This document shows positions 29,025-39,404 of a stretch of 63,620 bases of DNA, piece after piece; within the stretch, counting starts at the first letter, position 1, and every line of letters begins with the position of its first letter. The DNA is from Arthrobacter sp. H35-D1 (lineage in GTDB: Bacteria > Actinomycetota > Actinomycetes > Actinomycetales > Micrococcaceae). A program made the position numbers and the translations under genes. Location of the stretch: the NCBI RefSeq assembly GCF_030063185.1, contig NZ_JASISP010000024.1, forward strand, positions 1-63,620, read 5' to 3'. The notes below the pieces were generated by a model, which had not been told where the DNA came from, made no database searches, and saw only the letters and a list, made by a program, of their open reading frames with translations.

Positions 29025-29040
29025 GCGGCATAGGCAACTT
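29025..29040 (-). pseudogene. 16-bp piece of the HAD gene between the two insertions
   Basis: GCGGCATAGGCAACTT reads on the minus strand as part of the HAD codons for EVAYA. Its left five bases are the right GCGGC copy and its right five (AACTT) are the left target duplication of the Tn3-family transposon. Confidence 0.75.
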
Positions 29041-29078
29041 GGGGTCTGAGTAGTAATGGATCGGTTTTGTGTGGTTAG
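29041..29078 (+). repeat. Left terminal inverted repeat of the Tn3-family transposon
   Basis: 38 bp, matching 38558-38595 in inverse orientation except position 21 (T against A). The usual Tn3-family length. Confidence 0.9.
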
Positions 29079-29335
29079 TGGTTTTGGGTGTAGTTGAGGT
29101 AGCCGTTGATCGGGGGACGTTGAGCAGCTCGCTGATTTGTTGGACGGTGGTGGTGTCCGTTGTAGAGCTCTTGGGTGTGGGTGGCTTGTTCTGGGGTGAG
29201 TTCTGGGCGGTGGGCTCGTGAGCCGCTCGTGGTCGATGTAGATGTTGGTCGACTCGACGCCGGCGCGGGTGAGGGCGTCGATTTGGTGGTCGACGTTTTT
29301 GTTCCGGAGTAGAGACTCTGGCGTATTCAGGCTTG
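29075..29335 (-). pseudogene. Remnant of a serine resolvase gene
   Basis: The minus strand reads EYARVSTPEQ, then after a one-base shift NVDHQIDALTRAGVESTNIY, then jumps to the C-terminal end (RTHPRTSHPHPRAL in a shifted frame; NYTQNH before stop). It is a copy of the resolvase at 32883-33509 with the middle deleted and frameshifts. It marks a second left end of the same transposon type. Confidence 0.75.
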
Positions 29336-29652
29336 TGAAAGGTGAAATATCCGATGTCATGGTTTTGGTGGATGTCTACTGTATGGCTGGGGCCGGTTAA
29401 ACCGGGAATCCCAAATGCTTGTGGTTCCGTGGTGGCGAGTCGGCGCCGCGGAATCGTCATTGGTCGAACAGCAAAAGTGCTCCGGCCCTCGCGCTGCCGT
29501 CAAGAAATTGGCTGAGCTCGGTGGTCTGCTCATCGCGTGGGGGAATTGACTGCCATCTCATCCATTCACCAGCCACCGCATCCTTAGGCGTGAATATGCG
29601 GGCCGATCCTCCGGTTCTTGGTGGGGGCCGGGTGTTCCCCTGCGTCGTGGTG
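29336..29652. other. Between resolvase remnant and MarR gene, no convincing gene
   Basis: 317 bp. A short minus-strand frame contains DAVAGEWMRWQSIPP and TTELSQFLDGSARAGALLLF, which looks protein-like and may be a gene remnant, but I cannot assign it. Confidence 0.35.
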
Positions 29653-30132
29653 TTATTTCTTGCTGTGGTTTTCCAGGGTCTGGGCAAGGTGTTCCAGGAT
29701 TGTTGTGAGCTGGTCGATTGGCAGGCCCTCGGTGGTGGCCAGGCTTTGTTTGAGGGCGGCGTCGGATTGCTCGTAGACCCATTCCATGGCGTGCCGCCCG
29801 GCGGGGGTGGCGTTGATCAGCAGGCTTCGGCGGTCCTCCGGATTGGTGCCACGCACGATGAATCCGGCTTTTTCGATCCGGTCCAGTAGGGCGGTGATGG
29901 TCCCGGATGTCAGGCTCAGTGCCGCGCCCAGTTCCCGGGGCGCGGTGGGTCGGTGGTTGTATACGTGTTCCAGGGCGGCCAGGTCGCTTGTGCCCAGACC
30001 CAGCTCTTTCGCGTAGTTGTCCTGGCAGTGTTGGCTGGCCAGGACCAGGCGCCGCAGGCTCATCGTCATGGCCCGCAACTTCTCTTTCTCTGTCATGTGG
30101 GGGTTTTCCGCGGTCATTACCATTGCCGTCAT
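29653..30132 (-). CDS. MarR-family transcriptional regulator of the transposon cargo
   Basis: 159 residues; AGAGGA lies 5 nt before the ATG. The winged helix is visible in LGTSDLAALEHVYNHRPTAP, RELGAALSLTSGTITALLDRIEKAGFIVRGTNPEDRRSLLINATPAGRHAMEWVY. Divergent from the WxL operon across a 358-bp region with direct repeats, so it probably controls that operon. The signal it senses is unknown. Confidence 0.88.
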   Translation of the reverse strand: MTAMVMTAENPHMTEKEKLRAMTMSLRRLVLASQHCQDNYAKELGLGTSDLAALEHVYNHRPTAPRELGAALSLTSGTITALLDRIEKAGFIVRGTNPEDRRSLLINATPAGRHAMEWVYEQSDAALKQSLATTEGLPIDQLTTILEHLAQTLENHSKK

Positions 30133-30173
30133 TTCATCCTCTTGAAGATCGAGTTACTTGATCCCCCTAGAAC

Positions 30174-30211
30174 AAGAGTACCAGAACGATGAAGAAGAGT
30201 ACCAGAACGAT
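30174..30211. promoter_or_regulatory. Direct repeat, candidate MarR operator
   Basis: AAGAGTACCAGAACGAT occurs at 30174-30190 and again at 30195-30211, a 21-bp period (two helical turns), 42 bp upstream of the marR start. It is the best candidate for regulator binding in this region. Confidence 0.5.
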
Positions 30212-30383
30212 ATCGCATACGAACCAAGAGCAATATTCCTTCGGGCCTTTTGATGAATCATTTTGTTTGTTGGCCAAGCATATTGCTTGTTGGTCTTATT
30301 GTTGTTATGGTCAGGGTTGGCTTGTTTTAGCGGTGCTGGGGGGCGTGAAGCCTTGGCCTGTCTGCGGGGAGCCGACTGTAATA

Positions 30384-30423
30384 CCCTTGCCGAGCAAGGG
30401 CTCTCCGGGTCGTCTCAACCCGG
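30384..30423 (+). promoter_or_regulatory. Two hairpins in the leader of the WxL operon
   Basis: CCCTTGC-CGA-GCAAGGG (30384-30400) and CCGGGT-N7-ACCCGG (30405-30423) stand in tandem, 67 bp upstream of the first WxL-like gene. They form a structured 5' leader if transcription starts upstream. No known riboswitch class fits. Confidence 0.4.
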
Positions 30424-30490
30424 GGCAATCGATGTCTGTGGGTCCCTGCTGGGGGTGTCCCGGGCAGTACTGATCAGAAGGTCTCATATT

Positions 30491-31030
30491 ATGCGTACAT
30501 CCATTAAAACCTTTGCCGTCGCCGCGCTCACGGTCGGCGCCCTCGTTGCCGCACCGGCCGCTTTCGCCGCCGATACCACGGTGAGCCAGGCAGTGACCAG
30601 CGGAGGGCTCGCCGCGTCGGTCGCCGGCGAGCTGGCGGGGGTCACCGCCTCACACACTAGCCAGTCGAGCGTGGCTTCGTTCACCTTGACCGCGGACGAC
30701 CTCTCTGGTACCGCCGCTGGCTGGAACGTCACCCAACAGATCACAGAGTTGGCATACGACGGAACCAACGGCACCAACGCTGCCATCGGCGCCGCGAACT
30801 TCTCCGTCGCCCCCGGAGCGATCATCGCCAACGGGGGAGCAAGCACCACCGGCGTCGCTGCCGGCATCGGGGGGTCCCTGGAAACGGCTAAGAAGGTGCT
30901 GGCCGCCGAGGTCGGCTCCGGGGTGGGAAACTACACGCAGACCATCGCCGCGACCCTGACGGTGCCCGCCGACAGTCGGGTAGGTAACTACACCGGTACG
31001 CTGACCACCACCATGACGACCGCTCCGTAA
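30491..31030 (+). CDS. WxL-like secreted surface protein 1
   Basis: 179 residues with a clear Sec signal peptide (MRTSIKTFAVAALTVGALVA, then APAAFAAD cleavage region). The mature part is Thr/Ala/Gly-rich with the WxL-type motif GWNVTQQITELAYDG and the terminal beta strand YTGTLTTTMTTAP, where the second Trp of classic WxL is missing. WxL domains bind peptidoglycan non-covalently and are best known from Firmicutes. Its partner candidate is the WxL-interacting protein two genes on. Confidence 0.65.
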   Translation: MRTSIKTFAVAALTVGALVAAPAAFAADTTVSQAVTSGGLAASVAGELAGVTASHTSQSSVASFTLTADDLSGTAAGWNVTQQITELAYDGTNGTNAAIGAANFSVAPGAIIANGGASTTGVAAGIGGSLETAKKVLAAEVGSGVGNYTQTIAATLTVPADSRVGNYTGTLTTTMTTAP

Positions 31031-31053
31031 GGCATCCAGCTCAGCTAGTGGAA

Positions 31054-31097
31054 AAAGGTGCGGGGCCGGACCGGTAACGGGACGGCCCCGCACCTTT
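31054..31097 (+). terminator. Strong hairpin between the two WxL-like genes
   Basis: A 15-bp perfect stem, 31054-31068 with 31083-31097 (GGTGCGGGGCCG core), is followed by GCG, with T residues only at the end of the stem. It may be a partial terminator that lowers expression of the downstream genes, or it may protect the mRNA of the first gene. Confidence 0.5.
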
Positions 31098-31149
31098 GCG
31101 TGGTCGCGTGGATCTGCGACACCAGGGCCATTAAATTAGGGGATTTTTC

Positions 31150-31728
31150 ATGTTCACTCATCGGTGGCGTCCGGCCGTGGTGGCGCTCGTACTGCTGGGG
31201 GCCGGGTTCTTGCCCCTGGTGGCAGCTGTGCCTGCATCGGCGGACCTGAGTGCCAGCCTGGACGCCCTGACCCTGCCAGCTGTGGTGACCTCCCATACAC
31301 CCCAGACCACGACGGGCAGGATCGTGCTTACCGCCACCGACACCTCCACCTACACCCCGCCGGACCCGCCGGCGACCGAGGGTGTCGGGTCCGGTGTGGG
31401 CTGGCATGTGACCGAACAGGCCTCGGAGCTGGTGTACAGCGGACCGAACCTGGGAACGAACATCCCGGCAGCGAATCTGGCCATCGTCTCCGTTGACACC
31501 CCGACCATGGTTTCCGGTCAGCCCGTGGACCCGGTCAACGGGCCCATGGTGCCCGCCACCTCACCGGCTGGCCCGCTGGACAGCCCCCGGATGGTCCTGC
31601 ACGCCAATTCTGGGTACGGGGCCGGGACCTACGCCCAGGGCATTGAGCTGTCCCTGACGATCCCGGGGGATACCCGGGCCGGTACGTACACCTCCACGAT
31701 CACCACCACCATCGGGGTCGGGCCATGA
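31150..31728 (+). CDS. WxL-like secreted surface protein 2
   Basis: 192 residues. Signal peptide with hydrophobic core AVVALVLLGAGFLPLVAAV and cleavage near PASAD. GVGWHVTEQASELVYSGPNL matches the WxL motif region of protein 1, and the end GTYTSTITTTIGVGP is the same terminal strand. It thus appears to be a distant paralogue in tandem. The ATGA-overlapping or closely following gene encodes the WxL-interacting protein. Confidence 0.65.
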   Translation: MFTHRWRPAVVALVLLGAGFLPLVAAVPASADLSASLDALTLPAVVTSHTPQTTTGRIVLTATDTSTYTPPDPPATEGVGSGVGWHVTEQASELVYSGPNLGTNIPAANLAIVSVDTPTMVSGQPVDPVNGPMVPATSPAGPLDSPRMVLHANSGYGAGTYAQGIELSLTIPGDTRAGTYTSTITTTIGVGP

Positions 31729-31787
31729 CAGCCCAGCACGCCGACAGCGATGCTCACCCCGCGATCCTTGCGAAGGAACACACTCCC

Positions 31788-32882
31788 ATGCCCACAGCCA
31801 CCACCCCCAGCACCAGGTTCGGGACCGTCTGGTTCCTACTCGTCCTCGGTTGCCTCCTGGCTGCCCTGATGGTGCCGGTGGCATCGGCGGTGGCCGATGA
31901 CCATCAACAGGTCAAACTCAGCCTTGAACCCGTCGATCAGGCCGGCGCCTACTTCGCCCTGACCATGGACCCGGGCCAGTCCCGGGAGCTGAAAGTCGAA
32001 CTGGGAAATCACGGCACCGGCCCGATTGCGGCACGGACCTATGCAGCGGACGCCTACTCGATCATCAACGGCGGCTTCGGCGCCAAGGGCCGCGAGGGCA
32101 CCCCCACCGGGACCACGACCTGGCTGTCCTACCCCGAACAGGTCCTGGATCTGGCGGCCGGTCAGGCCAGCATCCGCTCCTTCACGCTCACCGTTCCCCC
32201 CGGCACAGCCCCCGGGTACTACCTCAGCAGCCTCATCCTGGAAAATGATGTACCCATCCAGGGCACAGGATCGGTGTCCTTGAACCAGATCGTCCGTCAT
32301 GCCCTTGCGGTGTCCATTCAGGTACCGGGGCCGCTCCAGCCCGCCTTCGGATTCGGGCAAGCCGGCCACAAGATCTCCGCAGAGCATTCGGTGGTCGATA
32401 TCGGCATCGCCAATACCGGCAACACCAATCTCAAACCCGCCGGAAACCTGACAATCACTGACGACAACGGAAAAACCGTGTCCCAAGCCCCCATCACCAT
32501 GGGCTCGTTCTACGCGCATTCGGACACCAAGGTCGAAACCATCCTCGACGGTATACTCCAGCCCGGGGACTACACCGTCAGCATCACCTTGACCGACGCT
32601 GGGACAAAAACCACCGCCACCGGCACGGACTTGCCCTTCACCGTCGCCAAGCCCCAGGCCAACACGGACAACAAAGCCCAACCCCGGCCACTGCCCCAGA
32701 TCATCCAGGACGCCGGCACCGGAATCACCCCCTACCTCATCGCAGCACTCCTCCTAGTCGTCCTGGCCGTCTTGTTCCTGCTCGTTCGCAGAAACCGGCG
32801 CTTGCGTCCACGCGACGGCGAGAGCACAAACACGACACAGGAGCCAGTATCCCCACCGACAGAACACGACCGTGCTGACTGA
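31788..32882 (+). CDS. WxL-interacting protein (DUF916-type), membrane anchored
   Basis: 364 residues from ATG 31788 (GAAGGA 10 nt upstream); an ATG at 31725, overlapping the previous stop, would add 21 residues. Signal/N-terminal helix RFGTVWFLLVLGCLLAALMV. Two immunoglobulin-like domains follow, as in DUF916/WxLIP proteins: LTMDPGQSRELKVELGN, TWLSYPEQVLDLAAGQ, TVPPGTAPGYYLSSLI, and VDIGIANTGNTNLKPAG. C-terminal helix YLIAALLLVVLAVLFLLV with basic RRNRRLR, so the bulk is outside the cell. It ends next to the resolvase stop. Confidence 0.75.
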   Translation: MPTATTPSTRFGTVWFLLVLGCLLAALMVPVASAVADDHQQVKLSLEPVDQAGAYFALTMDPGQSRELKVELGNHGTGPIAARTYAADAYSIINGGFGAKGREGTPTGTTTWLSYPEQVLDLAAGQASIRSFTLTVPPGTAPGYYLSSLILENDVPIQGTGSVSLNQIVRHALAVSIQVPGPLQPAFGFGQAGHKISAEHSVVDIGIANTGNTNLKPAGNLTITDDNGKTVSQAPITMGSFYAHSDTKVETILDGILQPGDYTVSITLTDAGTKTTATGTDLPFTVAKPQANTDNKAQPRPLPQIIQDAGTGITPYLIAALLLVVLAVLFLLVRRNRRLRPRDGESTNTTQEPVSPPTEHDRAD

Positions 32883-33509
32883 TCAGCACGATCTTTCCGT
32901 CCCCGGCAGCAGGGAAGAAGCCGGGGTTTGAGTAGTAATGGATCGGTTTTGGGTGTGGTTGAGGTAGCCGTAGATCGTTGATCGGGGGACGTTGAGCAGC
33001 TCACCGATTTGTTGGACGGTGTGGTGGTGTCCGTCGTAGAGCTCTTGGGCGTGGGCGGCTTGTTCCGGGGTGAGTTTGCGGCGTCGTCCGCCAGTGCGTC
33101 CGCGGGCCCTTGCGGCGGCGAGTCCATCGCGGGTGTTGGCGATGATGAGTTCACGTTGGAACTCGGCGAGTACGGAGAGCATCCCGAACATGGCCCGTCC
33201 TTCGGCGGTGGTAGTGTCGATGCTTTGTTCCAGGACGCGCAGGCCGACGCCTTGTTCTTGGAGTGCGGCGCCGAGGGTGACGAGGTGGAGCACGGAGCGG
33301 CCGAGCCGGTCCAGGCGGGTGATAACGAGTTGGTCACCGACCCGGTTGGCAGAGGCCAGGGCCTTGTCCAGTTCCGGGCGGCTGGCGCGTGAACCGCTGG
33401 CGTGGTCGATGTAGATGTTGGCCGGCTCGACGCCGGCGCGGGTGAGGGCGTCGATTTGGTGGTCGACGTTTTGTTCCGGTGTAGAGACTCTGGCATATCC
33501 GATGAGCAT
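32883..33509 (-). CDS. tnpR: Serine resolvase (TnpR-type)
   Basis: 208 residues from ATG 33509. Catalytic Ser in MLIGYARVSTPEQNVDHQID, then VITRLDRLGRSVLHLV and MLSVLAEFQRELI, and a C-terminal helix-turn-helix (AAHAQELYDGHHHTVQQIGELLNVPRSTIYGYL). Resolves cointegrates of the Tn3-family element. Its last codons run through the internal copy of the transposon end at 32923. The catalytic domain is complete. Confidence 0.92.
   Translation of the reverse strand: MLIGYARVSTPEQNVDHQIDALTRAGVEPANIYIDHASGSRASRPELDKALASANRVGDQLVITRLDRLGRSVLHLVTLGAALQEQGVGLRVLEQSIDTTTAEGRAMFGMLSVLAEFQRELIIANTRDGLAAARARGRTGGRRRKLTPEQAAHAQELYDGHHHTVQQIGELLNVPRSTIYGYLNHTQNRSITTQTPASSLLPGTERSC
32923..32955 (+). repeat. Internal copy of the transposon end
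   Basis: GGGGTTTGAGTAGTAATGG and the bases after it match the left terminal repeat at 29041 (one change in the first 29 bases, T for C at position 6). It is in the same orientation, directly next to the intact resolvase. It is probably the original left end of the tnpR-tnpA core before the WxL cargo was captured. Confidence 0.75.
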
Positions 33510-33652
33510 GTGCCGAGAATAGCAGTGGGCGGGGTTTTTCGTCGTTGATTTCCGACGCCGGTTATCGACGCCATTTTGTGGGCGTGTCGCGGGTAGGGTG
33601 TGAGTGTCGGCAGAGGATCGTTTGTCGACATGGGCGAATGTCGAGGAATCCA
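33510..33652. other. res-like recombination site between tnpR and tnpA
   Basis: The 143 bp between the divergent tnpR and tnpA genes hold repeated TGTCG/CGACA half-sites (GTGTCGCG, TGTCGGC, TGTCGAC, TGTCGAG, and an inverted pair around 33564-33592). This is the position and make-up expected for resolvase subsites. Confidence 0.55.
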
Positions 33653-36548
33653 ATGCCGGTCAACTTTGTTCCCGAGGATCAGCGCGAGCACTATGGCCGG
33701 TATTCCACTGACCCGGATCAGGGACAGTTGGACCGCTTCTTTCATCTGAGCTCTACCGATCGCGAGCTCATCGCCCGGCGGCGTGGTCCCCACAATAGGC
33801 TCGGGTTCGCGGTCCAGATTGGAACCGTGCGTTTCCTGGGTGTGTTTCTCCCGGACCCGTCGGATGTGCCGGACGTTGTTGCAGCGTATGTTGCATCTCA
33901 GCTTGGAATCTCCGATTGGCGTGCAATTGAGAACTATCCGCGCGATGGAACGAACCGTTTGCATGCAGCGGAAATTCGTGCGGCCTTCGGGTATCGAGAC
34001 TTCACAAATGAGGACAGCCAGGCGGTGTTCTTGGGGTGGTTGCGTGCGCGGGTGCAGATTGGTGCGGAGCGGCCGTCAGTGCTGTTCGATGTGGCGACGG
34101 CGTGGCTATTGGAGGCGAAGATTCTTCTACCGCGGCCCTCAACCTTGATGAGGACGATTTCTCAGGCCCGCGAGGAGAGTAACGCACGAGTATGGGACGA
34201 GCTCGCAGCGCTGCCGAACCGGGTACAGCGGTCGCGGCTGGAAGGACTGGTGGTGGTGGATACCGGGGCAAGGTCTTCGCCTTTGGACCGGCTACGCCGG
34301 GCACCAACGAGGGTATCAGCGGTGGGACTGTTGGGGGCACTGACCCGGCTGGAAGAGATTCGAGCGCTGGGCGTTGGTGGCCTGGACGTGTCCAAGATCC
34401 CGCCCAGTCGAATCGCCGCCCTGGCCCGCCATGGGGTCGCGGCAAAAGCACAGACGATAGAACGGATGACCACGAAGCGGCGGATCGCGACACTTCTCGC
34501 GGCCGCTCAACAGCTGGAGATTGTGGCAACCGATGATGCGTTAGATCTCCTGGACCAGGTCCTCAACGCGCTCTTATCCCGTGCGGCGAAGGCGGGGAAG
34601 AAGGATCGTATCCAGTCCCAACCGGCGATGGACAGTGCGGCGTCCGCCTTATCAAAAGCCGTTCAGATACTCCTTGACCCGCCCGAGGGTGACGTGACGG
34701 TGTTGTGGGCTGCGATCATCGGGCAAGTCTCACGCAACGAGCTCGAAGCCGCGATCGCGACGGTGGCTCGGATCGACATTGAACCGGTCGACGCGCATCT
34801 GAATGATCTCATGAGTCGCTACAGCTCGGTGCGTCGTTTTCTCCCGACGCTGCTGCGGACAATGGACCTCCGGGCCGCCCCGGGCGGCCAATCGGCACTG
34901 GAAGCATTCACCGCTCTGAATCGTTTGGAGGGCCGTCACACCATCCGGGTCGATGATGTGCCCATGGATCTTGCCACAGCGGCGTGGAGGCAACGTATCG
35001 AAGGTGAAAATGGGGTCCTGGACCGCCGGTCCTATACGTTCCTGGTGCTGGAGAAACTACGAGAGGGGCTGCGTCGACGTGATGTATTCGCGCCGGGAAG
35101 TGAGCGCTGGGGTGACCCGAGGGCGAAGCTTCTTCACGGCGCAGCCTGGGAAGCCGCACGCCCGGCGATCGCCGCCGGCTACGGACACCACCTCGATGCC
35201 CGCGAACAGATCAACGCCCTCGCGTCCGAGCTCGACGACGCCTACCACGCCGTGGAAAGCCGTATCAACGACAACCCGGCGGTGCGCATCGACTTCGTTG
35301 ACGGCCATGCGAAACCGGTCCTCACCCCTCTTGACCGTCTGGAGGAACCTGACTCCCTCATCGCTCTTCGCGAGGCTGTCAACGCGCTGATCCCTCACGT
35401 TGACCTTCCCGAGCAGATCCTGGAAGTCGCTGACTGGACCGGCTGCATGGCCAAGTTCACCCACATCTCCGAAGGTTCCACCCGTGCCAAGGACCTGGAC
35501 CTGAGTATCTGTGCCGTGCTGCTCGCCGAAGCCTGCAACATCGGTTTGGAACCTGTGGTCCAACCCGGTAATCCGGCCCTGACCCGTGCCCGTCTATCCT
35601 GGGCCGACCAGAACTACATTCGCAGTGAAACGATCACCGCCGCCAACGCCCGCCTTGTCGAGGTGCAAAGCAAAATTCCGATCACGACCGCTTGGGGCGG
35701 AGGCGACGTCGCCTCCGCTGACGGCATCCGCTTCGTTGTTCCCGTCCGCACGCTCAATGCCGGCCCCAACCCGCGATACTTCGGCGCCGGCCGCGGAATA
35801 ACCTACCTGAACTTCCTCTCCGATCAATTCGCCGGATTCCATGGCATCGTCGTCCCAGGCACCCTCCGCGACAGCCTGTATATCCTCGATGGCCTCCTGG
35901 AACAACAAACCAGCCTCCAACCCACCGAGCTCATGACCGACACCGCAGGCTACTCCGACCAAGTCTTCGGCCTCTTCCGCCTCAACGGATACCAATTCAG
36001 CCCCCGTCTGGCCGACATCGGCGCCACCCGATTTTGGAGGATCAACCGCGAAGCCGACTACGGATCTCTCAACGAACTCGCCAGACACCGCATCAACACC
36101 GATCTCATCGCCACCCACTGGGACGACCTGCTACGCATCGCCGGCAGTCTGGCCACCGGCACCGTTAAAGCCTCTGAACTCCTCCGTGTCCTCCAAGGCG
36201 GCGGGCGCCCCACACCACTTGGCCGTGCCCTGGCCGAATACGGCCGCATCGCTAAAACGACCTACCTGCTGGCCTACCTCAACGATGAGAGTTACCGACG
36301 CAGGATCCTCACCCAACTCAACCGCACCGAAGGACGCCACGCGCTAGCCCGCAACGTTTTCCACGGACACCGAGGACAGCTCAGACAACGCTACCGAGAA
36401 GGCCAGGAAGACCAGCTCGGAGCCCTCGGTCTCGTCGTCAATGCCATCGTTTTATGGAACACCCAATACATCAACGCCGCCATCGAACAACTACGATCCG
36501 AAGGCTTCCCGATCAACGACGAGGACTTGAAACGGCTCTCACCACTAG

Positions 36549-38444
36549 CGGGAGTTTCCGAGTTTTCTGGTGAAACGCGGCGTTTTACCGTGTGATCACG
36601 CGAAAAATCGTGTATTACCTATATATGACTTCCATCGTATCCAAGAAGCAGGGAAACAAGACCTACCTGTACGCCGTGGAATCGGCACGCGTCGATGGGA
36701 AACCCCGCATCGTCTCGCAAACGTATCTGGGCTCCTCCGAGGAGGTCCTGGCCAAACTCACCGGTGCCGAAGCTTCCGGCACCACGCTGCGCAGCGCCCA
36801 CCACACGTTCGGTGACAGCGCCGCCGTCTGGGGCATGCTCGAATCCCTGGGCATCGCAAAGATCATCGACGACGTCGTCTCCGGCACCGATCCGGTCAAG
36901 GGCGTTAGCGTGGGCCAGTTCCTGGCCATCGCAGCACTGAACCGGGTCGTGGCCCCCTGCTCCAAAGCGCAAATCGCCGATTGGTGGGCCACTACCGCCG
37001 GACCTCGCTTCACCAAAATCAGTGCCGCGAAACTGGACCACCGCCGCTTCTGGGACGCGATGAATCAACTCACCCCCACCCATCTGGAGGACATCAGCGC
37101 CCGCATCGCGGCCCGCATCGTGAAGGAGCACGACCTGGACACCTCCGCCCTGGCCCTGGACATGACCAACTTCGCGACGTGGGTCGATACCAACAATGAC
37201 GCCGCCGCCTTGCTGGCCCGTGGCAAATCCAAGCAGAAACGCGCCGACCTGCGCCTACTGGGTCTGGGCCTGGTCGTCACCCGCGACGGGTCCGTCCCGC
37301 TGGCCTGGCACCCGTACCCGGGCAACCGGCCCGATGTCTCGGTGTTCACCCAAACCCTGAACACCCTCACCAAGAGCTTCCATGCCATCACCGGCACCCC
37401 GGAGCCCACCCAAGACGGCGCGGTGGTGCCCGGCTACGAGGGCATGACCGTGGTCTTCGACGCCGGACAAAACAGCGCCAAGAACTTCACCCACCTCATC
37501 AACACCGGAGCCCGCTACGTCGGATCCACCCCGCCCTCGGACCACCAGGAACTCCTGAAAGTCCCCAAGACCCGCTTCACCGCCGTTGAGGACTACCCCG
37601 GGGTCACCGCCCACGAAACCACCAAGACCGTTTACGGGCACGCCCAACGCATCGTGCTCACCCATTCCGATACCCTGCACCGGGCCCAGTCCCGCGGTTT
37701 CGACCAGACCCTGGCCAAGGCCACCGCCAAGCTGGAGGAACTGGCCGACACGCTGACCCGTGGCAAGTCCCGTCGCAACGCCACGGCACTGGCCGCGCAC
37801 ATCAACTCCATCACCCATGACACGTGGGTGAACGAGGTTCTTCACACGACCCTGACCGGGGACACGCCCGCCACGTTCATCCTCACCCACACCGTGGATG
37901 CCGGAGCCCGCAAGAAACTGGAGCACCGGGTGTTCGGCAAGCGGATCCTGATCACCAACCAACCGGATTGGTCCCCGGCCCAGATCGTGGCGGCCTACCG
38001 TTCACAGTCCCATGTTGAAGATTCCTTCCGGCAGCTCAAGGACCGCCAGGTAGTCTCCTTCTCACCGATGCACCACTGGACCGATGACCACATCCGTGTG
38101 CATACCTTCACCTGCGTCCTGGCCTTGCAGATCGCGCACCTGATGACCCGCACCGCGGCCAAAGCCGGTCTCCCGCTCTCGACCCGGGCGTTACTTGATG
38201 AGTTGGGAAGCATCCAGGAGACCGTCCTGCTCCACCATGACGGCGCCAAGGGACGTCCTCGTGCCCAACGCCTGCTCACCGAGCATTCAAAGACAGCCGA
38301 GAAACTCAGTGGACTTTTCACTCTGGAAACCTACGCACCAAACCGCTGACAACCACCGAAAGGAAGCCACTGGGTAATACACCCCTAAAGTGAACCTGAC
38401 TAGGACAAACAAACCAAAATCAGGTCACCTTTCGGAAACTCCCG
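36549..38444 (+). mobile_element. IS1634-family insertion sequence in tnpA
   Basis: 1896 bp with 13-bp perfect inverted ends (CGGGAGTTTCCGA and its complement) and a 4-bp duplication CTAG. It carries one transposase gene in the same direction as tnpA. The transposon was therefore present before the IS. Confidence 0.9.
36625..38349 (+). CDS. IS1634-family DDE transposase
   Basis: 574 residues from ATG 36625; a frame from 36592 would add 11. Family features: KKQGNKTYLYAVESARVDGKPR at the N-terminus, SALALDMTNFATW and MTVVFDAGQNSAKN with the two catalytic Asp, and YRSQSHVEDSFRQLKD with the Glu of the DDE triad. Appears intact, so this IS may still be active. Confidence 0.93.
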   Translation: MTSIVSKKQGNKTYLYAVESARVDGKPRIVSQTYLGSSEEVLAKLTGAEASGTTLRSAHHTFGDSAAVWGMLESLGIAKIIDDVVSGTDPVKGVSVGQFLAIAALNRVVAPCSKAQIADWWATTAGPRFTKISAAKLDHRRFWDAMNQLTPTHLEDISARIAARIVKEHDLDTSALALDMTNFATWVDTNNDAAALLARGKSKQKRADLRLLGLGLVVTRDGSVPLAWHPYPGNRPDVSVFTQTLNTLTKSFHAITGTPEPTQDGAVVPGYEGMTVVFDAGQNSAKNFTHLINTGARYVGSTPPSDHQELLKVPKTRFTAVEDYPGVTAHETTKTVYGHAQRIVLTHSDTLHRAQSRGFDQTLAKATAKLEELADTLTRGKSRRNATALAAHINSITHDTWVNEVLHTTLTGDTPATFILTHTVDAGARKKLEHRVFGKRILITNQPDWSPAQIVAAYRSQSHVEDSFRQLKDRQVVSFSPMHHWTDDHIRVHTFTCVLALQIAHLMTRTAAKAGLPLSTRALLDELGSIQETVLLHHDGAKGRPRAQRLLTEHSKTAEKLSGLFTLETYAPNR

Positions 38445-38557
38445 CTAGGACATGACCACATCAACCTCCTGGGCCGCTACCACTTCAGCACCAACGACTT
38501 ACCCAAAAAAGGCCTCCGACCCCTCCGAAACCCCACCACCTCAAACTAGCCAAACCG

Positions 38558-38595
38558 CTAACCACACAAAACCGTTCCATTACTACTCAGACCCC
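38558..38595 (-). repeat. Right terminal inverted repeat of the Tn3-family transposon
   Basis: Complementary to the left end at 29041-29078 with 37 of 38 identical. AACTT follows at 38596-38600. Confidence 0.9.
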
Positions 38596-39325
38596 AACTT
38601 CGCGCGTTCCATCGTCGTGGTGGACCAGCAGCGCAAGCGTCGGGCCGGGCTGGTCCGTTGTGAACTGCAGCATCGGCACATCACCGTTGGCTTTTCCAGG
38701 GGCAAGAATGGGGCGGTGCCCAATGGGCTCCCATTTCTGGAGCGGCTTCGTCGGGCCGTCGTCCAGGATTCCCAACGCGGTGGTGCGGATGATCCGCGTC
38801 CCCGAATCATCGGCCATGAAACGCAGCCCGGGGGAGCTGCCCGCCACCCGGTCGGCGGGAACCCCCTACATCACCTCGGTCACGGGCCGCATGAAGTCGC
38901 GCCCACCGCCGGACACGATGTAGCTCGTGAACTCGTGAACTCGTGTGCTTCGAGGTAGCCGAGCAGCTCGATCATGGGAACGAACCCGAGCTCGGTGTAC
39001 GGGCGCCGATGGCCTGGGTGCTCCGCTGTTGCCAGGAAGTCTGCGGCCGACCTCGCGAAGTCTTCAACGTCGACGTCACCGAACGCGCCTTCCACGGCTG
39101 GGCCTGCTGCAGGGACGGATCTTCACGAGCCATCCCTGCCAAGCGTTGGGCGATGAACACCCCTTGTGCAAGCGGCTTTTCACACCACAAGGTGCCGTCG
39201 TTGTCGAGGACGGCAACCCGATCGCGTGGCTGCTCGTGGGGCGAGAGATCTTGGCGACGGGCGACACCGGCCAAATGGTTCAGAGTGCTGCAGAAGTCGC
39301 TGAACTTCAAATCTTCCAAGGACAC
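38596..39325 (-). pseudogene. HAD-family phosphatase gene, main part, several lesions
   Basis: Reads as the HAD-like hydrolase with DRVAVLDNDGTLWCEKP (motif I), then a deletion with frameshift near 39090, then DVEDFARSAADFLATAEHP and YTELGFVPMIELLGYLEAHEF. An 8-bp tandem duplication near 38930-38945 shifts the frame into SYIVSGGGRDFMRPVTEVM. An in-frame TAG follows, then DDGPTKPLQKWEPIGHRP and MLQFTTDQPG to HHDDGTREV at the transposon edge. The C-terminal tail is at 19642-19743. Only the insertions, not the other lesions, keep the frame. Confidence 0.8.
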
Positions 39326-39404
39326 GCGACAGGCGCATCATCCATCCGGGGTGAGGTTACGTGCTCCGGCCACCAACGAGACCGGCCCGGTTGGTGGCGT
39401 GAAG

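Follow-up and report, generated by a model that had tools for sequence, protein, structure and literature searches.

Among the passenger genes of Tn3-family transposons, those for resistance, metal handling and catabolism are the most familiar. The locus described here raises the question of whether an element of this family can also carry a set of genes for proteins of the cell wall. It was found in an Arthrobacter draft genome (4.46 Mb in 86 contigs); the window, by which we mean the whole stretch of DNA analysed, is one entire contig of 63,620 bases. Taken jointly, the data are best explained by a composite Tn3-family transposon carrying a small surface operon, a reading that we consider probable. 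A surface operon in such an element implies that wall-associated proteins can travel like other passenger genes. It is one decayed instance of a cargo that is unusual for a Tn3 element, and a search of its own genome detected a single copy.

Architecture of the transposon

The region 29041-38595 is a Tn3-family insertion, as documented by its terminal inverted repeats of about 38 bp, a perfect 5-bp target duplication, and genes for a Tn3-type transposase and a serine resolvase (PF00239), the latter putatively serving cointegrate resolution (Table 1). The outer terminal repeats are identical at 37 of 38 positions, with position 21 as the sole mismatch, and unrelated 38-mers of the window reach at most 23/38 to the right repeat. 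AACTT abuts both outer ends exactly; given the base composition, two prescribed sites would share their 5 bp by chance with p ~0.0013. The repeats with a single mismatch and the perfect duplication had been reported in the initial annotation of this DNA and are both borne out.

Table 1. Features of the transposon and its cargo (positions refer to the window)
Feature	Position	Strand	Evidence or remark
Target-site duplication AACTT, left copy	29036..29040	.	sequence
Outer left terminal repeat, 38 bp	29041..29078	+	37/38 to right repeat
tnpR relic (resolvase 3' part) with left repeat	29041..29326	-	large internal deletion, frameshifts
MarR-family regulator	29653..30132	-	PF01047 46.8 bits, cut-off 24.6
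WxL-like protein 1, small, secreted-type N-terminus	30491..31027	+	PF13731 24.8 bits, cut-off 25.0
Strong RNA hairpin between WxL-like genes	31054..31097	+	intergenic fold z -5.4
WxL-like protein 2, small, paralogue of WxL-like protein 1	31150..31725	+	37% identity, E 2e-17
WxLIP: signal helix, two Ig-like domains, C-terminal membrane helix	31788..32879	+	PF06030 31.9 bits, cut-off 27.3; model and fold match
tnpR, serine resolvase	32886..33508	-	PF00239 145 bits; C-terminus reads through damaged repeat
Damaged inner left repeat (minimal Tn3 element)	32923..32960	+	30/38 to right repeat
tnpA, Tn3-family transposase	33653..36548	+	NF033527 961 bits (cut-off 500); PF01526 483 bits; cut near C-terminus by IS
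IS1634-family insertion sequence, 1896 bp	36549..38444	+	NF033559 303.5 bits (cut-off 100); CTAG on both sides
Right terminal repeat, 38 bp	38558..38595	-	sequence comparison
Target-site duplication AACTT, right copy	38596..38600	.	sequence

The composite anatomy of this transposon is directly visible in the sequence. Its right part, 32923-38595, comprises tnpR and tnpA between two repeats, a minimal Tn3 element that begins about 40 bp past the WxLIP stop codon and has a damaged left end, the inner part of the internal repeat having been removed by a 17-bp deletion between two GGTTTTG stretches, as read from the alignment. The 5-bp flank of this internal repeat is AAGCC, unlike AACTT; thus, only the outer pair fits the duplication, and this pair alone combines two intact repeats with matching flanks. 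The cargo sits between the minimal element and a resolvase-plus-repeat relic, in which 259 of 275 aligned columns (94%) are identical to the sequence from 32923 onwards. The third repeat copy at 32923, the decayed resolvase copy and the IS1634-family insertion had been overlooked in the initial annotation.

The transposase gene is incomplete, being interrupted near its 3' end by the IS1634-family insertion, which bears on the present autonomy of the element and not on its membership of the family. Comparison with the DNA of a related copy in another genome (G154, see below) indicated that about 33 C-terminal residues are absent from the window transposase. Since the insertion severs the end of tnpA, any mobility of the element would probably depend on help in trans. 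With this 1.9-kb element inside the transposase, the unit that moved was perhaps only about 7.7 kb, and the element is probably inactive today. The earlier proposal that the entire 9555 bp, cargo included, moved as a unit is therefore not adopted in that form: a Tn3 insertion with the cargo between the outer repeats is supported; joint movement of all 9555 bp is not established, as the IS1634-family insertion may have occurred later. A relative of this insertion sequence is present elsewhere in the same genome (G000:C11 33171-33914, 92-93% identity), as is a second Tn3-type transposase (G000:C42 148-1974, 35% identical).

The surface-protein cargo

By homology and predicted features, the cargo would encode, next to a MarR gene, a membrane-anchored WxL-interacting protein (WxLIP) with a pair of small partners associated with the wall. 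The WxLIP was modelled with a mean pLDDT of 69 from a three-sequence alignment, yielding two beta domains with a helix at either terminus, the C-terminal one (314-338) qualifying as a membrane helix. The three best PDB matches of this model were Enterococcus faecium WxLIP chains (9i1y, 9i25; E 1.2e-09 to 8.5e-09); the WxLIP alignment extended over some 270 columns, at low global TM-scores (0.29-0.40). The 240 PDB matches at E <=0.001 were to various Ig-like proteins, including the pilus chaperones Caf1M and FimC. PF11797, the second, host-binding WxLIP domain, reached 14.1 bits, below its cut-off of 28.9, and a PDB sequence search with the WxLIP alignment returned no WxLIP chain at E <=1 and matched a human protein over one short stretch (E 0.0003). 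The identification of a WxL-interacting protein made in the initial annotation is supported by PF06030 and by the best structural matches; together with the repeats and the Tn3 genes, this profile and fold evidence also upholds the broader claim of a Tn3-family transposon with a surface-protein cargo.

The two small proteins proved more difficult to classify. Neither exceeds the cut-off of the WxL profile, WxL-like protein 1 falling just under it and WxL-like protein 2 having no WxL Pfam match. Seven small proteins were aligned: the pairs of the window, of A. wenxiniae and of a Chloroflexi metagenome-assembled genome (MAG), and a single one from genome G004. The first motif is W-x-V in all seven, and the second is devoid of Trp in all seven. 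As the published definition demands two Trp-x-Leu motifs, both proteins are designated WxL-like and not WxL, and the cargo points to WxL-like proteins without the name-giving motif of the family. What remains of the earlier description is a homologous pair whose first member lies close to the Pfam cut-off. Profile support for the two families was likewise partial, with PF06030 above its threshold, PF13731 and PF11797 below theirs, and WxL-like protein 2 unmatched. NCBIfam gave zero matches for both WxL-like proteins and the WxLIP, and none for the seven aligned small proteins. The predicted structure of WxL-like protein 1 was poor (mean pLDDT 52), had no PDB match at E 0.001 and thus provided no fold support, and the best hit of a PDB sequence search with WxL had an E-value of 0.27.

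These proteins might instead represent another Ig-like surface or pilin-like family that also partners WxLIP-type proteins, a possibility to be taken seriously even if it is not the one we favour. The absence of Trp from the second motif, the sub-threshold or missing Pfam matches of the window pair and the lack of NCBIfam hits all agree with it, as do weak DUF4402 matches in three of the seven sequences (best E 0.0049). It is opposed by PF13731 matches at E <=1 in five of the seven (best E 6.2e-07), the match of the window protein spanning the C-terminal portion of the profile, and by the position of the small genes, which adjoin a WxLIP gene in all four loci aligned. Within the order, 25 of 396 genomes matched a profile built from these small proteins; most matches fell in open frames at least several hundred residues long, so larger actinobacterial relatives exist.

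Judging from homology and sequence, the WxLIP, probably anchored by its C-terminal helix, would hold the two small WxL-like domains at the peptidoglycan, an arrangement analogous to that proposed for the WxL clusters of Enterococcus. The divergent MarR regulator may control the surface operon. Two candidate MarR operator sites lie upstream of its start codon: positions 30147-30163 form an imperfect palindrome of 17 bp, and a 21-bp unit is repeated in tandem at 30170-30211. The hairpin that follows the first small gene would probably raise the abundance of the first product. A strong hairpin also occurs between the small genes of A. wenxiniae (z -3.5); the corresponding value in the Chloroflexi MAG (z -1.6) is not significant, 15 of 200 shuffles being as stable. 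A promoter scan of 29300-33000 detected no sigma-70-type site, against 0.8 expected. Third-position GC of codons is 0.79-0.83 in the cargo and 0.70 in tnpR and tnpA; for most host genes measured in the window it is 0.74-0.82, with two at 0.62-0.63. The cargo thus resembles host genes, and composition gives no sign of a foreign origin.

The insertion site

When the outer flanks are rejoined, they form one frame resembling a HAD phosphatase, and one of five homologues (L131) aligns to a few residues past the joint. The HAD-phosphatase-like gene adjoining the insertion (window 38600-39330) contains further stops and frameshifts besides the transposon, so it was probably already decaying.

Where the flanks match plasmids, the genes concerned are mostly of housekeeping type (zwf, tal, tkt and suf, for example), and other flanking genes are presumably glgC and glgA, as named by eye from their translations. 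With central-metabolism genes on its flanks, the insertion site looks chromosomal. A plasmid location of the window was considered and rejected, the plasmid matches of the flanks being mostly of housekeeping type and the open frames looking chromosomal. At the start of the window, positions 3-2704 are 78% identical over 2.7 kb to a part (L068 13260-15948) of the G154 contig that also has the related transposase and a ParA-type gene; zwf is annotated beneath a plasmid match of the same stretch.

Distribution of the cargo and of related Tn3 elements

The initial annotation described WxL and WxLIP loci as studied mainly in Firmicutes. Published figures do assign 91% of 938 WxL-domain sequences to this phylum (PMC9772566). 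For WxLIP this emphasis is misleading: of 394 genomes sampled in the class, 83 have a PF06030 match, which exceeds the cut-off in 72. The window WxLIP was matched in 36 of 197 relatives, including its own genome, which has just the one. Its presence is patchy, with matches in 7 of 22 other genomes of the genus, and WxLIP matches were found in only three of 72,556 plasmid records, at about 26% identity. A viral collection searched with two short peptide patterns contained no relative, and on this basis a phage origin was rejected.

The closest operons were found in A. wenxiniae (58%) and in the Chloroflexi MAG (42%), and in each a WxLIP gene follows a pair of small WxL-like genes; the contig search used two short peptide patterns and missed more distant operons. 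Within 10 kb on either side, neither operon has a match to the window transposase or resolvase. Carriage by Tn3 elements is one possible route to the patchy presence of WxLIP in the genus and to closest operons as scattered as these two. Tad or type II secretion-like genes lie upstream of the WxL-like and WxLIP genes in A. wenxiniae (L055 2751-5791), and Tad genes are grouped with a MarR gene (41%), a WxL-like gene and a WxLIP gene in G004 (L056 660-3658). Tad queries derived from these two loci matched just the same two among 48 WxLIP loci.

A recurrent transposable module is not supported. None of 48 other WxLIP places lies near related Tn3 genes or the repeat. All were taken with flanks of at most 10 kb on either side (contig ends shortened eight, and two overlap) and were searched with the window tnpA, tnpR and IS1634 proteins and three other transposases (E <=1e-6), and with 28 bases of the repeat, allowing up to 8 mismatches; at this sensitivity, WxLIP itself was recovered in 32 of the 48. 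When up to 3 mismatches were allowed, three of 395 genomes of the family contained the initial 28 bases of the repeat: the source genome of the window, G154 with an exact copy and G022 with 3 mismatches.

Among the matches listed, the transposase has one close relative. Contig C76 of G154, a genome from another genus of the family, encodes a stretch of the same transposase, with protein identity of 97.6% over 340 and 94.8% over 135 residues, and 96.3% identity to the window DNA over 1419 bases. This copy is free of the IS1634-family insertion; it is itself interrupted by IS21-type and ISL3-type elements and one frameshift, and its left half is missing. The contig also encodes a ParA-type gene. 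At E 1e-50, 50 of the 395 family genomes have a transposase match, and among those listed, all besides the window and G154:C76 are at most 53% identical. Searched as a whole against plasmid records, the transposon gave a single match, a 4% stretch at the resolvase.

Origin of the composite element

The repeats, the duplication and the gene order are observed, and from them we infer a route by which the cargo could have been enclosed. The relic, remnant of a second, related copy, would have contributed the intact left repeat beyond the cargo, and a transposase acting on the outer pair of repeats would have moved the intervening DNA into the decaying phosphatase gene, leaving AACTT behind. The IS1634-family insertion has cut off the end of tnpA, probably immobilising the element unless it is helped in trans. 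The composite Tn3 reading draws on the repeats with their duplication, the Tn3 genes, the third repeat and relic, the frame across the rejoined site, the WxLIP profile and fold, the shared operon order in A. wenxiniae and the Chloroflexi MAG, and the IS-free, 97.6% identical transposase in another genus. It is weakened by the single copy, the lack of a second case among 48 places, the host-like GC of the cargo, the low PF11797 score, the lack of fold support for WxL-like protein 1 and a PDB sequence search that retrieved no WxLIP.

The surface operon could alternatively be native to this place and flanked by two related Tn3 insertions, the AACTT pair being due to chance or rearrangement. The host-like composition of the cargo and a Tn3 copy on each side would fit, yet the duplication lies exactly at the outer ends, the broken phosphatase frame aligns across the rejoined outer flanks, and the closest relative of the operon, in A. 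wenxiniae, has different neighbours. We therefore regard a native operon as unlikely. Next to the resolvase relic, at 29328-29356, is a degenerate Tn6516-type match, a possible second Tn3-family end of which part is perhaps resolvase sequence. If the cargo had been brought by a Tn6516-like Tn3 element of which this is the relic end, the composite would result from later nesting. Against the inner portion of the Tn6516 repeat, the match reaches 19/24 (18 or fewer in 200 shuffles of the window); however, it was noticed post hoc, the outer part of the repeat is missing, and some of it (ATATCCGATG) aligns to the resolvase gene too, making such an origin quite improbable. Most doubtful of all would be a self-contained surface-fibre or coat module travelling by Tn3, in which a membrane-anchored, chaperone-like WxLIP, in line with the Caf1M and FimC matches of its model, would hand over tandem WxL-like subunits without the second Trp, the hairpin would set the subunit ratio, and lineages would exchange coats.

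Relation to known systems

The composite transposon can be compared with three described systems. Tn6516 and Tn6517 are described as Tn3-family transposons with passenger genes on Arthrobacter plasmids, and share with the window element the genus, 38-bp repeats starting with GGGG, a 5-bp duplication, a transposase and a serine resolvase (PMC6305408). In contrast to their copper-resistance or hypothetical genes, the window element carries a WxL-like/WxLIP operon, and it differs further in its three repeats and IS-broken transposase (PMC6305408). In the literature searched, WxL and Tn3 did not occur together as whole words in any paper, and among the titles and abstracts listed none concerned a surface-protein cargo of this kind in a Tn3 element.

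The cargo resembles the WxL/WxLIP clusters of Enterococcus and its relatives, for which a WxLIP with a peptidoglycan-binding domain, a second Ig-like domain and a membrane helix is described, with small WxL-like proteins adjacent in the window (PMC10599100, PMC9772566). By the definition given in these sources, WxL clusters comprise proteins with two Trp-x-Leu motifs, one small and one large (PMC9772566, PMC10599100). The window locus departs from them in having two small WxL-like genes and no large WxL protein, a W-x-V first and Trp-less second motif, an adjacent MarR gene and a transposon as its carrier (PMC10599100, PMC9772566). The third system, TIME-COMP, also has cargo within Tn3-derived sequences, outer repeats and a 5-bp duplication; as described, it is bounded by two miniature Tn3-derived elements without transposase, whereas the window has a full tnpR-tnpA element on the right and a decayed one-repeat fragment on the left (PMC13367494).
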